Notes under the pieces: model-generated | Databases searched by the model: none | The model's input: the letters and a program-made list of their open reading frames with translations, nothing else | Told to the model about the DNA's origin: nothing | Translations under genes and position numbers: made by a program | Shown here: positions 294-61,009 of the stretch, piece by piece | Layout of the letters: the number at the start of each line of letters is the position of its first letter | Numbering within the stretch: position 1 is the first letter of the stretch | Source: Novosphingobium resinovorum | GTDB taxonomy: Bacteria; Pseudomonadota; Alphaproteobacteria; Sphingomonadales; Sphingomonadaceae | DNA: 64,000 nucleotides | NCBI RefSeq assembly: GCF_001742225.1 | Contig: NZ_CP017075.1 | Span: forward strand, 2,418,001 to 2,482,000 | Direction: 5' to 3'

Positions 294-380
294 TGGTGCC
301 CAGAAGAGGACTCGAACCTCCACGCCCTTGCGAGCGCCAGCACCTGAAGCTGGTGCGTCTACCAATTCCGCCATCTGGGC
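294..380 (-). tRNA. tRNA-Leu (anticodon CAG)
   Basis: On the minus strand the sequence folds as an 87-nt class II tRNA. The acceptor stem is GCCCAGA/TCTGGGC. The D region contains the usual GGTAGACGC. The anticodon stem CCAGC/GCTGG encloses loop TTCAGGT with anticodon CAG. A long variable arm is followed by the T arm with GTTCGAGTC, and CCA is encoded at 294-296. It reads CUG leucine codons. Its 3' end faces the integrase, so it is the likely insertion target of an element lying left of the window. Confidence 0.97.
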
Positions 381-54312: not shown

Positions 54313-54510
54313 GTGCAGGACCCCACCCACCCGCAGGCCCTGACGCCTCTCAGGCGCGCGGCCGTCTACGCAAGCGTCATCCTGACCCTCGTGGGCATAG
54401 TCGATGCCTTGCACAATATCCCGGTGGTATCCGGCTGCGCCTTCTACGGCGACTGCGAGAGGGAATCCTTCCGCGATCCTCCCGGTAAACTCGGCAAGGA
54501 TGTCCCGTGA
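54313..54510 (+). CDS. Small single-pass membrane protein
   Basis: This 65-residue product starts at GTG with GGAGG 9 nt upstream. It has one hydrophobic segment (about residues 15-35, AAVYASVILTLVGIVDAL) and two cysteines (SGCAFYGDC). Its stop overlaps the GTG of the following DCC protein gene (GTGA), indicating a translationally coupled operon. No family is recognised; the cysteine pair may work with the thiol-disulfide partner. Confidence 0.65.
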   Translation: MQDPTHPQALTPLRRAAVYASVILTLVGIVDALHNIPVVSGCAFYGDCERESFRDPPGKLGKDVP

Positions 54511-54908
54511 GCGGCGAGGCGCCGGCGCTGGTCGTCTACGATGGCGAGTGCATCTTCTGCCAGAACTACGTGCGCATGCTCAGGCTGCGCGACAGCGTCG
54601 GCCCCGTCGAACTCGTCGATGCGCGCAGCGACGACCCGCGCGTGGCCGCGATCGCGGCGCAAGGCTTCGACCTCGACCACGGCATGGTCTTCTCCTACCG
54701 CGAGCGGATTTATCACGGCTCCGACGCTGTGCATGCGCTGGCGCTGCTGGCATCGCCCTCCAGCCTGTTCAACCGCATGAACGCCCTGCTTTTTTCCCGC
54801 CCCGCCATTGCCCGGCTCAGCTATCCCTGGCTGAAGGCGGGGCGAAGGGCGACCCTGTGGCTGCGCGGGCGCAAGCGCATCGCACAGTCCCCTGCCGCCG
54901 GGGACTGA
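54507..54908 (+). CDS. DCC (DUF393) thiol-disulfide oxidoreductase-like protein
   Basis: The 133-residue protein has the DUF393 motif VVYDGECIFCQNYVR, with Asp12 and a CxxC pair (Cys15, Cys18) on a thioredoxin-like start, then DARSDDPRVAAIAAQ and DAVHALALLA. DCC proteins are thought to transfer thiol-disulfide equivalents, often fused or adjacent to HTTM/VKGC-like membrane proteins, as here. Basic residues close the C-terminus. Confidence 0.9.
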   Translation: MSGEAPALVVYDGECIFCQNYVRMLRLRDSVGPVELVDARSDDPRVAAIAAQGFDLDHGMVFSYRERIYHGSDAVHALALLASPSSLFNRMNALLFSRPAIARLSYPWLKAGRRATLWLRGRKRIAQSPAAGD

Positions 54909-54937
54909 CCGGCACTAACGACACCGAGGGGAAACTT

Positions 54938-56416
54938 ATGTCGTCGGCACCAGGCACTCCGCTTTTCCGCCCGATCGCGTGGCGCAGCCTATCGCAGGGC
55001 GCAGCAATGCCCACATTCGACGGCCTGACCGCCGTAGCCCCTTGCTGGGGCGTCGCGGCACTGTTCAGCATCGTCGGCGATCCCTGGGGCCTGACCGGGC
55101 GCGAAGGCGCGCTCTACATGCTGCTGGCATGGTCGGTCGTGGCCACCAGCGTGATGACGATCCTGTTCCCGCGCAAGACTTACGCCTTCGTCGCCCTCGC
55201 CGCCTGCACAGTGCTGCTCTACGCACTGCGTCTGCCCGTCGCATCCAACAACAAGACGATCACCACGATGTTCGACTTGTGCATCCTGCTCAGCGGTACG
55301 GTGCTGGCCGCGCAGGGGAAACTGACCCGCGAGCGCCTTTACGAGTCCCTGCGCACCCCGGCGCGACTGATCCTCGCGACGATGTACTTCTACGGGATCT
55401 TCCATAAGATAAATACCGACTTCCTCGATCCCACCGTCAGTTGCGCGGTCGGCCTCTACAAGCCGCTGGCCGAGCCGTTCGGGCTGGAGGACAACCTCGT
55501 CGGCCGTTACCTTGCGATCTGGTCGACGTTCGTGATCGAGGGTATCGCCATCGTCGCGCTGTTCTGGAAGCGGTGGTTCGCGATCGGCCTGACCAGCGCT
55601 CTGGTGTTCCACTATATCATTCCGATCTCGGCCTACAGCTGGTACATGGACTTCTCCAGCCTCGTCTTCGCGCTCTACATGCTGACGATGCCGCGCGAGG
55701 CCAGCGCGAAGATCTACGAGATCACCTGCCGTCATGTCGTGGAGCCGCTGCGCAGCCTGTTCGGCCGCATCGGCATTCTGGCGCCGATAGCCGCGCTTCT
55801 GGCGATCGCCACGCTGGTCGTGCTGCTGCTGGCGCTCGCGAACCCGGGCCGCCCCGCGCTCATGCTGCTGCACTCAATCTTCATCCTGACCTGGGCAGTG
55901 GTCGGCGGCGTGGCCATGACCGCGATGATCTACGCAGCGATGCTGTACCTGCCCTATCGCGGAGGAACCGCCGGTCGCAGTCCTTATGCTGCATGGAACT
56001 GGATCGTCCCGGTACTCTACTTCGTCAGTTGCCTGTCACCCTACCTCGGGCTCAAGACCGAAAGTTCGATCAACATGTTCAGCAACCTGCACACAGAAGG
56101 CGGCACCACCAACCACCTGCTGTTCTCGCGCCCGCCCTATCTGTTCGACTACCAGCGGGACGTGGTGCAGGTCGTCGCCTCGTCAAGCCCCTCGCTCACC
56201 CGCACGGCGAACGAGGGCCGGATGAACGTGCTGTTCTCGATCGAGGAATTCCTGCGCCGTCATCCCGACCAGTGGGTAACCTATATTCACGACGGCCAGT
56301 TGATCGAGCAGGCGACGGCCGCCAGCCTGACGCTGGAATCCGCGACCTGGCTCGAACGCAAGCTGCTCATCTTCAAGCAGGTCGACCCCAACCGGCCCAA
56401 GGTCTGCACGCACTAG
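54938..56416 (+). CDS. Multi-pass HTTM-like membrane protein (VKGC-type family)
   Basis: The 492-residue protein has about 10 hydrophobic segments (residues 30-370) and a soluble C-terminal part. The segment YFYGIFHKINTDFLDP resembles the HTTM/vitamin-K-gamma-carboxylase-like motif (F-x-G-x-x-K-x-N). Human VKGC modifies glutamates using reduced vitamin K; bacterial members have unknown substrates. The DCC partner upstream fits a redox-linked reaction. GAGGGG before ATG 54938 supports the start. The catalytic lysine pair cannot be confirmed. Confidence 0.7.
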   Translation: MSSAPGTPLFRPIAWRSLSQGAAMPTFDGLTAVAPCWGVAALFSIVGDPWGLTGREGALYMLLAWSVVATSVMTILFPRKTYAFVALAACTVLLYALRLPVASNNKTITTMFDLCILLSGTVLAAQGKLTRERLYESLRTPARLILATMYFYGIFHKINTDFLDPTVSCAVGLYKPLAEPFGLEDNLVGRYLAIWSTFVIEGIAIVALFWKRWFAIGLTSALVFHYIIPISAYSWYMDFSSLVFALYMLTMPREASAKIYEITCRHVVEPLRSLFGRIGILAPIAALLAIATLVVLLLALANPGRPALMLLHSIFILTWAVVGGVAMTAMIYAAMLYLPYRGGTAGRSPYAAWNWIVPVLYFVSCLSPYLGLKTESSINMFSNLHTEGGTTNHLLFSRPPYLFDYQRDVVQVVASSSPSLTRTANEGRMNVLFSIEEFLRRHPDQWVTYIHDGQLIEQATAASLTLESATWLERKLLIFKQVDPNRPKVCTH

Positions 56417-56463: not shown

Positions 56464-56478
56464 TTACTCCCACTCGAT
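56464..56478 (-). other. Left attachment site with the displaced guaA end
   Basis: Reads ATCGAGTGGGAGTAA on the minus strand: the codons ATC GAG TGG GAG and TAA, encoding IEWE and stop. These are the same last four residues as the present guaA. This shows the original gene ended here before insertion. Confidence 0.88.
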
Positions 56479-56536
56479 TATTTCCTAGAATTCTAACCAA
56501 TTGATTTTTAGGGAAAAAATATTTCTCACCCAAAGC

Positions 56537-56735
56537 TATACCGTCAGCGACACCGACAAAGAACAGCGCTTTTGAAATCATTGGACTTTTTGGCCATATG
56601 CCAAATTCAATGGTTTCGCCATCTATCGCCGACGACGGAATTGCAGGGTCCAAACTGCTCGTCCCCAGCGTCATTCGCCGTTTCTACGCCAGGTTACTCT
56701 GGCCGGCATTCGCGCCTCTCTGGCCTATACCGTCA
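56537..56735 (+). repeat. TATACCGTCA repeats, left cluster (2 copies)
   Basis: TATACCGTCAG at 56537-56547 and TATACCGTCA at 56726-56735. The second lies in the small palindrome CCTAT-ACCGTC-ATAGG. The same word recurs at the right end of the island, consistent with arm-type binding sites of its integrase. Confidence 0.75.
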
Positions 56736-56793
56736 TAGGCATTTTTTGCCAATCGGGCGACGGACCAATCGGCTCAGTTCCCTATAGAAAAAT

Positions 56794-56842
56794 TGTAATC
56801 TTCGTGCTACACATTTCTCCGGTCTGTAGTGCGAAGGTAGCA
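56794..56842. promoter_or_regulatory. Candidate HipB operator pair
   Basis: The 18-mer TGTAATCTTCGTGCTACA (56794-56811) is the inverted partner of TGTAGTGCGAAGGTAGCA (56825-56842), matching at 13 of 18 positions, 13 bp apart, and ending 1 bp before the hipB ATG. HipB-type antitoxins autoregulate by binding such inverted sites upstream of hipBA. The sites also cover the hipB ribosome binding sequence. Confidence 0.55.
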
Positions 56843-56843
56843 A

Positions 56844-57179
56844 ATGCCGACACCCCATAATCCGCCAGCCGCGGTGAGGCGCGCGCTGCGCAAGCTTGGC
56901 GCGGACATCCATGATGCCCGTCGCCGTCGTCGGCTGCCGATGGCAGTTGTGGCCGAGCGAGCCTTCACGTCGCGTTCGACGCTCCAAAAGATCGAGGCGG
57001 GCGATACCAATGTCAGCATCGGTATCTATGCCGGCGTCCTTCAGGCGCTCGGTCTCCTGGAAGGATTGAGCCAGATCGCCGATATCGGCAACGACAGCGT
57101 CGGCCAGGCATTGGCCAGCGCCGATTTGCCGAAGCACGCCCACCCGAAGCGGCCGACCGGAGCGTCGCGCGATGGCTGA
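56844..57179 (+). CDS. hipB: HipB-like antitoxin (XRE helix-turn-helix)
   Basis: The 111-residue protein has an XRE-type DNA-binding domain at about residues 15-75 (LGADIHDARRRRRLPMAVVAERAFTSRSTLQKIEAGDTNVSIGIYAGVLQALG, split as helix-turn-helix segments), then an unstructured tail. It should neutralise HipA and repress the hipBA promoter. It overlaps hipA by 8 bp. An inverted repeat precedes its ATG. Confidence 0.88.
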   Translation: MPTPHNPPAAVRRALRKLGADIHDARRRRRLPMAVVAERAFTSRSTLQKIEAGDTNVSIGIYAGVLQALGLLEGLSQIADIGNDSVGQALASADLPKHAHPKRPTGASRDG

Positions 57180-58419
57180 TTTCGAGGTTCATCTCGACCT
57201 TCATGGCCACACGCGCCCAATCGGGTTGGCGCGGGGCAATCGCGTCCGTGGCGCCGAGACCATCATGTTCGAATATGATCGCGGCTGGCTTGAGGACCCG
57301 GATCGCTTCTCGCTTGAGCCGGCTCTGGCCCTGACGCGCGGGGCATTCGCGCCACCCGCTGGTCTGGCGACCTTCGGCTCTATCGGCGATTCCGCGCCCG
57401 ACACCTGGGGACGCCGCCTCATGCAACGCTCGGAGCGGCGCAGCGCCGAGCGCGATGGCCGCCCCGTACGCAGTCTGGCCGAAAGCGATTATCTGCTCGG
57501 CGTCGCCGACGAGACCCGACTTGGCGCGCTTCGCTTCCGTTGGGTCGGCGAAGAACAATTCCAAGCGCCGATCCGCGCCGGCGTGCCCGCCCTGATCGAA
57601 CTCGGCCGACTGCTTCAGATCACCGAACGCATTCTGCGCGATGAGGAAACCGACGAAGACCTCCAGCTCATCTTCGCGCCCGGCTCGTCACTTGGCGGAG
57701 CGCGGCCCAAGGCCTCGGTCGTGGACCAGCACGGTCATCTCTCCATCGCCAAGTTTCCCAAAGAGACCGACGACTACAGCATGGAGACATGGGAGGAGAT
57801 CGCCCTACGACTGGCGGGCCAAGCCGGCATCGCCACGCCGCTCCACGAACTGATCGATGTCGCCGGCAAGAAGGTCATGCTGTCGCGGCGCTTCGATCGA
57901 GATGGTGCGGTCCGCATTCCCTTCCTGTCGGCGATGGCGATGATGGGAGCCAAGGATGGCGAGCGCGGCAGTTATCCGGAGATCGTCGACGCCCTGGCCG
58001 AGCATGGCGCGCAGGGGAAGACCGATGCCCACGCCCTTTATCGCCGTGTCGTCTTCAATGTGCTGATCTCAAATGTCGACGATCATCTGCGCAATCACGG
58101 CTTCCTCTGGCTGGGTAAGGCCGGATGGTCACTGTCCCCAGCGTATGACCTCAATCCCGTGCCGACCGATATCAAAGCGCGAGTGCTGACGACCAACATC
58201 GATCTCGATGAGGGCACCTGCTCGCTCGACCTTCTGGAAGAGGCCTCGGAGTTCTTCGCCCTCACGTTGGCGCAGGCTCGCACGGTCATCAAGGACGTGG
58301 CGACCGTGACCTCAACTTGGCGCGAAACTGCAAAGGCGGTCGGCGCGAGACCGGCTGAGATAAACCGCATGGCCAGCGCCTTCGAGCATGACGACCTCAA
58401 GCGGGCGCTGGCCCTATGA
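57172..58419 (+). CDS. hipA: HipA-like serine/threonine kinase toxin
   Basis: The 415-residue protein is a type II toxin of the HipA family. In the model toxin it phosphorylates glutamyl-tRNA synthetase and induces dormancy. It has the N-subdomain (GDSAPDTWGRRLMQRSE), the Ser-containing P-loop-like segment APGSSLGGARPKA (about 168-180) where the autophosphorylation site lies, IAKFPKETD, and the catalytic NVDDHLRNHGFL (about 301-312) followed by SPAYDLNPVP. All key motifs are intact, so it is probably active. It is inside the guaA island; its stop ATGA overlaps a spurious ORF. Confidence 0.93.
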   Translation: MADFEVHLDLHGHTRPIGLARGNRVRGAETIMFEYDRGWLEDPDRFSLEPALALTRGAFAPPAGLATFGSIGDSAPDTWGRRLMQRSERRSAERDGRPVRSLAESDYLLGVADETRLGALRFRWVGEEQFQAPIRAGVPALIELGRLLQITERILRDEETDEDLQLIFAPGSSLGGARPKASVVDQHGHLSIAKFPKETDDYSMETWEEIALRLAGQAGIATPLHELIDVAGKKVMLSRRFDRDGAVRIPFLSAMAMMGAKDGERGSYPEIVDALAEHGAQGKTDAHALYRRVVFNVLISNVDDHLRNHGFLWLGKAGWSLSPAYDLNPVPTDIKARVLTTNIDLDEGTCSLDLLEEASEFFALTLAQARTVIKDVATVTSTWRETAKAVGARPAEINRMASAFEHDDLKRALAL

Positions 58420-58548
58420 CGAGAACCTTCCTTCACAGCTTCGATCCACCGTCGGCCAGCCCCGTCAACGCCGCTACAGTCGACCTGGACGTGGCGGATA
58501 TCGAGGACGCCGGCATTCGCGAGGTGCTTCAGACGCCGGGCGCCGCCT

Positions 58549-59049
58549 ATGGCGCGTGGTCCAACCTCATCCGCTGGGTTGGCGACCATCTCGCCATGCA
58601 GGATGGCGAATGCAAAGATCAGCTTCACGATATCGCGCACATTGACGGCTGTGGCTGGAGCGCCGCGATCCTTCACTTTTCCCACACATCATACGGAGAT
58701 CGTCCGGCGTGATCTCCGTCAGCAGCCTGTTTCGGAATGTCGGCAGAATGTCGCGCTCGTAGATGGAGCGCCGCATAGCCCGCGTGCTGTCCGCCATGCG
58801 CGATTCCTGGAACCACTTTTCGCCGAACTCGCCGAACCGCTTCGCCTCCTTCAGTCGACGCTTGTCTTGTTGCTTCTCTTGAGCAGGCGACCGCCCCTCA
58901 GAAATGGCCCGCTTCGCGTCGATTAGCTTCTCGCGAGCCCTGGCTAGCGAAAGGGCGTCGGGACCATATCGACCGAGCGTCAGCGTCTCGCGCCGTCCGT
59001 TGAGCCGGTAGTCGCAGCGGAATACGATGGTCCCTGACGGCTGGACCAC
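58549..59049 (-). pseudogene. Broken tyrosine integrase of the guaA island
   Basis: Reading leftward from 59049, the frame matches P4-type integrases: PSGTIVFRCDYRLNGRRETLTLGRYG, SLARAREKL, FGEFGEKWF and LLTEITPDDLRMMCGK. At about 58685 it jumps frame and continues VKDRGAPATAVNVRDIVKLIFAFAILHG and ANPADEVGP, then leaves the family pattern at about 58555. It lacks about 40 N-terminal residues (TAA directly upstream) and the whole catalytic domain (RHRY residues). It is therefore non-functional, and the island cannot excise by itself. Confidence 0.88.
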
Positions 59050-59056
59050 GACTTAC

Positions 59057-59334
59057 ATACCGTCACGATCGCTCACCTTGTACAATTTTTTCTGTTATTT
59101 CAGTGCCTTAATAGAAGTGTTGGTAAGCATGAGAGCCTCCAATTCTGTCCAAACAACAGCAGAGAGGCGCCAATTATACCGTCAGGCCAAAACAGGCGTC
59201 GCTGGAAGCGATTTTATCTCGTAATTTCAAATATTTATGGTCAAAAACTATACCGTCAGCAGCTCTCTTAGCCCTGACGGTATAGGTAAACCCCTAACCG
59301 AACAAGTTCCCCCATACCGTCCGCTATACCGTCA
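59057..59334. repeat. TATACCGTCA repeats, right cluster (6 copies)
   Basis: Copies at 59057-59065 (ATACCGTCA), 59175-59185, 59249-59259, 59274-59284 (inverted, CTGACGGTATA), 59313-59321 (CATACCGTC) and 59325-59334. They lie between the integrase remnant and guaA. The pair at 59249/59274 is an inverted repeat with a 14-bp spacer. No gene is seen in 59066-59449. Confidence 0.75.
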
Positions 59335-59449
59335 AATCGGAGCATTGCCCCTCGATAGACGACGATAGATGATGATATTTTTATCGTTTTTTCTCATACG
59401 GTTAGATCGCAACATGGCGTGCAATCGGATACCGCCAGAGGGGTAAAAA

Positions 59450-61009
59450 TCATTCCCACTCGATCGTGCCGGGCGGCTTCGAGGTGTAATCGTAGACCAC
59501 GCGGTTGATGCCCTTGACCTCGTTGATGATGCGGGTCGCGACGCGGCTGAGGAAGGCCGCGTCGAAGGGGTAGATATCCGCCGTCATGCCGTCGGTCGAA
59601 GTGACCGCGCGCAGGCCGCAGACGCTGTCGTAAGTACGACCGTCGCCCATCACGCCCACCGTCTTGACCGGCAGCAGCACCGCAAAGGCCTGCCAGATCG
59701 CGTCGTAGAGACCGGCGTTGCGAATCTCCTCGAGGTAGACCGCGTCCGCCTTGCGCAGGATGTCGCAGCGCTCGCGGCTGACTTCGCCGGGGATGCGGAT
59801 GGCAAGACCCGGGCCGGGGAACGGGTGACGACCGACGAAGACGTCGGGCAGGCCCAGTTCGCGGCCCAGTTCGCGCACTTCGTCCTTGAACAGTTCGCGC
59901 AGCGGCTCGACGAGCTTCATGTTCATGCGCTCGGGCAGGCCGCCGACGTTATGGTGGCTCTTGATCGTCACCGAAGGACCGCCGGTAAACGAAACGCTTT
60001 CGATCACGTCCGGATACAAGGTGCCCTGCGCCAGGAACTCGGCGCCGCCGATCTTCTTGGCCTCGTCCTCGAACACGTCGATGAAGGTCTTGCCGATGAA
60101 CTTGCGCTTGGCTTCGGGGTCGGTGACGCCCTCAAGTCCGTTGAGGAACAGCGTCGAGGCATCGACGTGGACCAGCGGGATGTTGTAGTGGCCGCGGAAC
60201 AGGCTGACGACCTGGTCCGCCTCGCCCATGCGCATCAGGCCGTGATCGACGAACACGCACGTGAGCTGGTCGCCGATCGCCTCGTGGATCAGCACTGCCG
60301 CAACGGCGGAATCGACGCCGCCCGAAAGGCCGCAGATCACCCGGCCCTCGCCCACCTGCGCGCGGATTTCCTCGATCTTGGTCTTGCGAAATTCGGCCAT
60401 CGTCCAGTCACCGGTCAGACCGCAGACATGGCGCACGAAGTTCTTGAGCAGCTTGCCGCCGTCGGGCGTGTGCACGACCTCGGGGTGGAACTGCATCGCG
60501 TAGATGCGCTTCTCGTCGTTGGCGATCACCGCGAAAGGCGCGCCTGCGCTCGATGCGACCGGGCGGAAGCCGGGAGCGAGGCTGGTCACCTTGTCGCCGT
60601 GGCTCATCCAGACCTGATGCTTCTCGCCGACCTTCCACAGGCCGTTGAACAGAGCGCACTCATCGCCGATCTCGATGAAGGCGCGGCCGAACTCGCCCCC
60701 ATCGCCGCCGGTCACTTCACCGCCCATCTGATGCATCAGCGACTGCTGGCCGTAGCAGATACCCAGGATCGGGCGGCCGCTCTCGAGGATCACGTCGGGG
60801 ATGCGAGGACCGTTCTCATCCAGCACCGAGGCGGGCGAGCCGGAGAGGATTACGCCCACCGGGTTCATGCGGCGGAACGCCTCCTCAGCGGCGTTGAACG
60901 GGGCGATCTCGGAATAGACGCCGGCCTCGCGCACGCGCCGGGCAATCAGCTGCGTCACCTGGCTGCCGAAGTCGACGATCAGAACGGATTCGGTGGGCTG
61001 GATATTCAT
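59450..61009 (-). CDS. guaA: GMP synthase, glutamine-hydrolysing
   Basis: The 519-residue enzyme converts XMP to GMP. The amidotransferase domain has the nucleophile Cys about 85 in GICYGQQ and the His/Glu pair in [10 protein letters not shown]. The ATP pyrophosphatase domain has [10 protein letters not shown] (PP-loop, about 227-236). The dimerisation domain ends GTIEWE. Its last codon and stop now come from island DNA (GAA TGA), whereas the native GAG TAA lies 3 kb away; the protein is unchanged. It is presumably fully functional. Confidence 0.97.
59454..59464 (-). other. Right attachment site in guaA
   Basis: The 11-bp core TCCCACTCGAT on the plus strand, inside the last four codons of guaA. 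The same 11 bp at 56468-56478 mark the other end of the island. Confidence 0.88.

Follow-up and report, generated by a model that had tools for sequence, protein, structure and literature searches.

We analyzed a 64-kb stretch of the 6.9-Mb genome of Novosphingobium resinovorum (hereafter the window, in which all positions are counted, and the host genome), where an island of about 3 kb lies in the 3' end of guaA, the gene for GMP synthase (59450..61009, minus strand; Pfam GMP_synt_C and GATase). Between guaA and the gene on the far side of the island (the left-flank gene) lie, in the reading direction of guaA, five copies of a short repeat, TATACCGTCA, the remnant of a tyrosine integrase gene, a truncated gene, a hipBA toxin-antitoxin pair and two further copies of the repeat. 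A first-pass annotation, made from the sequence alone, had proposed that this island entered the end of guaA and left the native end of the gene readable at the opposite border.

The island borders and an empty site in a relative

Both borders of the island can be read directly. The present guaA ends in the codons ATC GAG TGG GAA TGA, of which the last codon and the stop come from the element, as judged from the open reading frame (ORF) and from comparison with an empty site (below). At the far border stands ATC GAG TGG GAG TAA (56464..56478, minus strand), the displaced native end of guaA, which is identical to the end of guaA at the empty site. On the plus strand, these ends read TCATTCCCACTCGAT at 59450-59464 and TTACTCCCACTCGAT at 56464-56478, respectively. 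They share the 11-mer ATCGAGTGGGA, which occurs on the minus strand at 59454..59464 (the attL core, at the border beside guaA and the integrase) and at 56468..56478 (the attR core, at the distal border), and these are its only two exact copies in the window. Since the bases flanking the 11-mer differ between the two borders on both sides, the shared length is exactly 11 bp. Thus, the first-pass annotation read correctly the common core, the native GAG TAA at the left border, and the substitute GAA codon and TGA stop at the right border. Its statement that the insertion can be reconstructed to the base holds only to within the 11-bp core, since the crossover cannot be placed inside identical sequence. 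We considered placing it with the help of a relative, G027, in which the two ends differ at core positions 3 and 6, and dropped this approach because the differences could be due to later drift. The core taken alone is weak evidence of insertion, because copies of the 11-mer with one mismatch number four in the window (1.28 expected) and 4 of 100 shuffles reach that number.

The insertion is documented by an empty site in the genus. We searched 149 genus genomes, counting in the host genome, for guaA and for the integrase; 138 of them met the guaA cut-off (E ≤ 1e-100), and the guaA flank was inspected in 30 of these 138, host included. From the remaining 108, the ten with an integrase match were fetched, and the survey of occupancy is confined to the genomes so covered. 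The closest of the 149 by guaA, G029 (99% protein identity), has the left-flank gene, 18 bp, and then TTACTCCCACTCGAT joined directly to the guaA codons. Its guaA ends in GAG TAA and is followed by the same neighboring gene as in the left flank of the window. When the window flanks are joined at the core, 614 of 649 aligned positions are identical to the G029 site. This is the arrangement that the first-pass annotation had predicted for an island-free relative, except that the spacer between flanking gene and guaA end, 47 bp in the prediction and in the window, is 18 bp in G029 (29 bases shorter). The annotation had also named two arrangements that would speak against insertion, namely the repeats and hipBA, or a guaA end reading GAATGA, at the same place in island-free relatives, and neither was seen at the G029 site: the 1.5 kb downstream of its guaA lack TATACCGTCA, its genome gives no integrase match at E ≤ 1e-12, and it is absent from the group of 13 genomes that match HipA at E ≤ 1e-60.

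The left-flank gene, which we searched for, along with the fusion junction described below, in 195 genus genomes (host included), is present in five of these, again counting the host. It lies beside guaA only in the host and G029; the other three carriers (G110, G503 and G437) have no guaA within the 1.5 kb fetched. This gene, which the first-pass annotation called HTTM-like, gave no hit in Pfam or NCBIfam at E ≤ 0.001 when taken as its longest ORF (54404-56416); the beginning of that ORF overlaps a DCC1-like ORF, and the true start probably lies further in. A tRNA gene was rejected as the target, as the only one in the window (294-380) is far from the island.

The integrase remnant, its family and the probable arm-type repeats

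The integrase pseudogene (58558..59130, minus strand) lies beside the attL core and matches Arm-DNA-bind_3 (which we take to be the renamed DUF4102) and, partially, Phage_int_SAM_3. Alignment with an intact relative shows in-frame stops at codons 12 and 26 (numbered from 59130, the probable start) and a frameshift near 58680, and its similarity to relatives ends at about 58558, ahead of the catalytic domain. The integrase is dead, as the first-pass annotation had stated, and the ORF at 58567-59049 is a mid-gene fragment of it. In the host genome we found no second integrase of this family at E ≤ 1e-12, only the remnant itself. Thus the claim that the state is frozen stands for the host genome, but both ends of the island look complete, and an incoming related element might act on them.

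Relatives of this integrase lie predominantly beside guaA. Among the 149 genus genomes, 34 have an integrase match at E ≤ 1e-12. Identity is at least 53% in 14 genomes besides the host and at most 39% in the others, and over the matched N-terminal part two of the genus integrases reach 93 and 96% identity. In 13 of these 14 genomes, the integrase gene is directly beside guaA, and the fourteenth (G062) is without a guaA match. We also used the intact integrase of one relative, G123, as the query in an order-level search (E ≤ 1e-90), which 24 of 396 genomes matched, host included, and a wider scan of a genome collection gave 577 stretches that encode integrase relatives, of which the best 80 were kept (mostly from what we take to be Alphaproteobacteria, with one Thauera metagenome-assembled genome). 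Of the resulting 104 loci, 99 have a co-oriented guaA upstream (75 of the 80 from the scan and all 24 from the order-level search, host included), and the distance from the end of guaA to the integrase is 302-312 or 283-286 bp, except in L099, L114, L115, L116 and L117.

From 98 of the 104 loci we obtained the interval between the core and the integrase start, referred to as the attL interval; the other six are L150, L160, L170, L179 and L099, with no recognizable core in the searched stretch, and L116. The same 11 core bases as in the window are found in 83 of the 98 intervals, host included. The last guaA codon and stop in these intervals read GAATGA in 67, GAATAA in 27, GAGTGA in three and GAGTAA in one, such that GAA is the final guaA codon in 94 of the 98 and TGA the stop in 70. 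The displaced guaA ends seen in the three elements whose attR was examined read GAGTAA (window), GAGTGA (G123) and GAATGA (G027).

Several loci deserve separate mention. The integrases of L170, L172 and L179, which are without guaA in the upstream sequence fetched, perhaps belong to tandem elements or use other target sites. At L077 (G035:C90:33200-35543), an attL-type guaA flank with arm repeats is followed, close to the end of the contig, by integrase similarity that extends no further than the first codons, and this is possibly a second, independent relic. In L068 and L099 (both G092:C49), guaA matches only to residue ~486-489 and an open integrase frame of the family follows; no core was found in the 420 bases preceding that frame, and the end of guaA has possibly been altered or wrongly assembled. 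L076 (G005) has two cores ~12 kb apart (at 932 and 12905 in guaA orientation), with a similar flank after each, a pattern suggestive of islands arranged in tandem in guaA.

The island contains six exact copies of TATACCGTCA and one copy with a single mismatch. On the attL side, there are five repeats, numbered from the core: 1 (59325..59334), 2 (59313..59322; one mismatch to the 8-base motif), 4 (59249..59258) and 5 (59175..59184) have TATACCGTCA on the plus strand, and repeat 3 (59275..59284) lies in the opposite orientation, on the minus strand. The attR side has two, both on the plus strand, at 56537..56546, ~68-70 bp inward of the core, a distance shared with G123 and G027, and at 56726..56735, 189 bp from the first (188 bp in G123). 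With one mismatch allowed, TATACCGTCA occurs nine times in the whole window (0.53 expected), a number that none of 100 shuffles reached, and 6 of the 16 exact copies in the host genome are in the island (the reversed control pattern has four copies genome-wide).

The repeats are conserved across the family at fixed positions. The 98 attL intervals (31,143 bases) contain 357 copies of TACCGTCA or its complement, compared to a mean of 1 and a maximum of 4 in 200 base shuffles, a comparison that rules out base composition only, the loci being related and some of them near-copies. In the 76 intervals that reach 316 bases or more, the five positions hold 58, 35, 74, 68 and 70 exact copies. On the attR side, G123 has two repeats at places matching those of the window and G027 has one exact repeat, so that conservation on this side refers to three elements. 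The repeats also vary together: the motif is followed mostly by T in 83 loci and mostly by C in 12 (the remaining three have no copy), with 317 T and 5 C copies in the T loci, 0 T and 28 C copies in the C loci, and another base in seven copies. In a quick tree of 90 integrases (87 labeled), the T/C variant needs two changes. Thus, repeats within a locus appear to change jointly from one variant to the other, which would fit a single protein reading all of them and lends indirect support to binding by the arm domain. No integrase residues separated the two variants at a 90% threshold. We conclude that the TATACCGTCA repeats are probably arm-type sites, which the arm domain of the integrase is predicted to bind. 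Another near-copy of the repeat, at 59056, falls within the codons of the integrase and may be coding sequence. In addition, CTATCG motifs that are conserved in relatives occur at 59353-59368 (attL side, twice, minus strand) and at 56623-56628 (attR side, plus strand), and these might be sites for an excision factor.

We found no earlier description of an arm-site set for guaA integrases in the open-licence literature, as judged by titles and the starts of abstracts, and on the same basis no integrase-site paper was among the matches listed for the literal repeat TATACCGTCA. The predicted set, a by-product of this analysis, applies to a guaA integrase family found in many Alphaproteobacteria and is possibly of wider use.

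The hipBA pair and a fuller element in G123

Inside the island, a hipB-like antitoxin gene (56844..57179, plus strand; 93% identical to its counterpart in G123) and a hipA-like kinase toxin gene (57172..58419, plus strand; 90% identical) both have open reading frames. HipA has a HipA_C match (E 2.6e-44) and the loops GGARPK, NVDDHLRNHGF and YDLNP, presumably the conserved loops of the HipA kinase, and the upstream antitoxin has the helix-turn-helix domain HTH_31, the composition of a HipBA type II toxin-antitoxin system. The NCBIfam matches of both proteins (couple_hipB for the antitoxin) are below their cut-offs. Compared to G123, the ratio of nonsynonymous to synonymous divergence (dN/dS, obtained with a Nei-Gojobori script written for this analysis) is 0.058 for hipA and 0.040 for hipB at a synonymous divergence (dS) of ~1.0; on this evidence purifying selection has acted on hipBA through most of its history, the greater part of which predates the relic. 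The pair may well still work, to judge from its sequence. A reading of HipA as a known defense gene was not used, since the PADLOC match is weak (PDC-M03A, E 2.9e-4).

G123 carries a fuller version of the island. One of its contigs has, in order, an attR, two arm repeats, ~6 kb, hipBA, and a gene of 374 codons that matches nothing in Pfam, with T4SS-DNA_transf, CagE_TrbE_VirB, TrbL and TrbI genes further along. The ~6 kb comprise an Mrr_cat gene, a KAP ATPase gene, and matches to the defense genes QatB, QatC and QatD (the KAP ATPase gene and the strong Qat matches are at L090:10167-15174, contig C3 of G123). The intact integrase and attL of G123 are on a different contig. A second relative, G104, also has Trb genes in its element, with no second core in the 56.7 kb fetched. 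Between the window cores, in comparison, we recognized only hipBA, a gene fragment and the integrase remnant, and none of the type IV secretion, relaxase or coupling genes of a self-transferable integrative and conjugative element (ICE).

The gene fragment marks the point at which the window and G123 part. It consists of the first ~49 codons of the 374-codon gene (58416..58561, plus strand), cut and fused to the integrase remnant; the similarity to G123 on the hip side ends at 58561 and that on the integrase side starts at 58558, such that the two overlap by four bases (58558..58561). One junction therefore truncates both the integrase and the gene after hipA, each of which is full length in G123. 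In G123 the two parts of the fusion lie apart, and of the 195 genus genomes the host alone has them joined; 15 of these match the fusion at E ≤ 1e-10, and apart from the host and G123 they do so on the integrase side only. Because both genes at the junction are truncated, a deletion is the simple reading, and we infer that the junction was made by a deletion or an equivalent rearrangement. A second breakpoint region lies on the left, from the attR arms to the hip module (56737..56784), where G123 has ~6.2 kb including the Qat genes and its similarity to the window resumes just after the qatD stop. The part of the integrase before the frameshift differs from that of G123 by a dS of 0.11 with a dN/dS of 0.19 (11 synonymous and 7 nonsynonymous changes), compared to a dN/dS of 0.022 between the integrases of G123 and G104; with these small counts, the remnant looks to be under relaxed selection.

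Origin of the island and comparison with known elements

We consider that the insert is a decayed ICE of the guaA-targeting tyrosine-integrase family, which inserted and was then reduced by deletion to ~3 kb with hipBA (probability roughly 0.92); its ancestor was presumably a full ICE. In the sequence of events that we propose, an ICE whose integrase has an N-terminal arm-binding domain would have recombined its attP into the last codons of guaA, giving the gene a synonymous last codon and a new stop and pushing the native GAGTAA end to the far border. A later deletion would have taken out the transfer region along with the part of the integrase gene that encodes the catalytic domain, leaving the gene that follows hipA fused to mid-integrase sequence. 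Two stops and a frameshift would have arisen in what was left of the integrase. What would remain of the ICE is the present ~3 kb, with the attL core and five arm sites, the dead integrase, the open hipBA pair, and the attR core with two arm sites.

Several points weigh against this account. The G123 element is on two contigs, and its continuity is our reading of them; on the left side, either a loss of the Qat genes here or a gain in G123 is allowed. Moreover, the parts of the island differ unequally from G123: dS is 0.11 for the integrase and ~1.0 for hipA and hipB, the attR side is only 71% identical over 144 bases, and 75-base steps along the hip region give identities of 75 to 93%, with 94% in the final 161 bases ahead of the junction. 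This unequal divergence indicates that the island is a mosaic and that G123 is a cousin rather than the direct parent. In addition, a single empty-site relative (G029) was found, and 5 of the 104 integrase loci show no guaA, two of them with little upstream sequence (L150 and L160) and three with 943 to 3000 bases available (L170, L172 and L179).

The best surviving alternative, which we consider less likely than not, concerns the present state of the relic: it may be a cis-mobilizable element (CIME) rather than a dead end. An ICE of the same integrase family, on entering the cell, could then act on its ends in trans to excise and move it, and hipBA would be a passenger or an addiction module. 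CIMEs are flanked by attL and attR and are without a working recombinase. The relic resembles them, having by sequence an intact attL and attR and no working recombination genes of its own, and trans-mobilization would be conceivable here. Both cores and all seven arm positions are recognizable (one with a single mismatch) despite the dead integrase, and possible helpers exist, as the 93 and 96% identical integrases of the genus and the 577 collection stretches illustrate. However, the host genome has no second integrase of the family, and the fused unit is in no other of the 195 genus genomes, so that there is no sign of its movement as a unit. An extended form of the idea appears similarly doubtful: the relic would be a live substrate with a full code of core and seven arms, re-excisable by an incoming guaA ICE, with hipBA resisting loss and riding along, and the five-repeat code would change in concert with the integrase lineage.

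It is improbable that the small size is original, that is, that a minimal hipBA element occupied guaA and the G123 element became larger by gaining Qat and transfer genes. An insertion of the Qat genes in G123 would also leave left-side similarity resuming after the qatD stop, but the integrase and the gene after hipA are both cut at 58558-58561 and full length in G123, and a working small element would not carry half an integrase. A reading without any mobile element, in which the 11-bp match arose by chance or because the end of guaA was duplicated locally, could draw on the shortness of the core and the unremarkable frequency of one-mismatch copies in the window, but we reject it as next to impossible given the G029 empty site, the integrase relatives at the same place with near-constant spacing, and the homologous attR ends in G123 and G027.

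Returning to the decayed ICE, we compared it with described elements, drawing on parts of the sources cited. The Epsilon15/CMGI-3 cluster, which targets the guaA 3' flank, belongs to the IntSXT subgroup of tyrosine recombinases, a subgroup with an N-terminal DUF4102 arm-binding domain (PMC8138268). The window remnant has Arm-DNA-bind_3 and the same guaA target, but it is a dead fragment, likened to the cluster by domain and target rather than by its place in a tree. Tripartite ICEs with IntG and the guaA ICEs of Mesorhizobium, as described in part of PMC8627217, are alphaproteobacterial and also use guaA, and they differ from the relic, likened to them by that description, in that the relic is without transfer genes. 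HipAB is reported to stabilize the composite island CGI48 of Shewanella (PMC8978831), and hipAB thus lies inside a genomic island there as in the window; the CGI48 site is a tRNA-Trp gene and stabilization is stated in the title of that source, whereas the window hipBA is known from sequence. A parallel in the core is GIsul2 which, with related islands, targets guaA and has the common core 5'-GAGTGGGA-3' (PMC9376610, part of the source). GAGTGGGA lies inside the 11-bp core of the window. Unlike the window, in which neither a working integrase nor a third exact core was found, GIsul2 combines an active integrase with a third att site. The guaA target and the GAGTGGGA core are already published, and the window island is a well-documented relic of a known kind of element. 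Relatives supply an empty site and a fuller element, and the window itself preserves both attachment ends and the displaced end of guaA, so that the decay of an ICE-type element to its ends and a toxin-antitoxin pair can be read in a single case.

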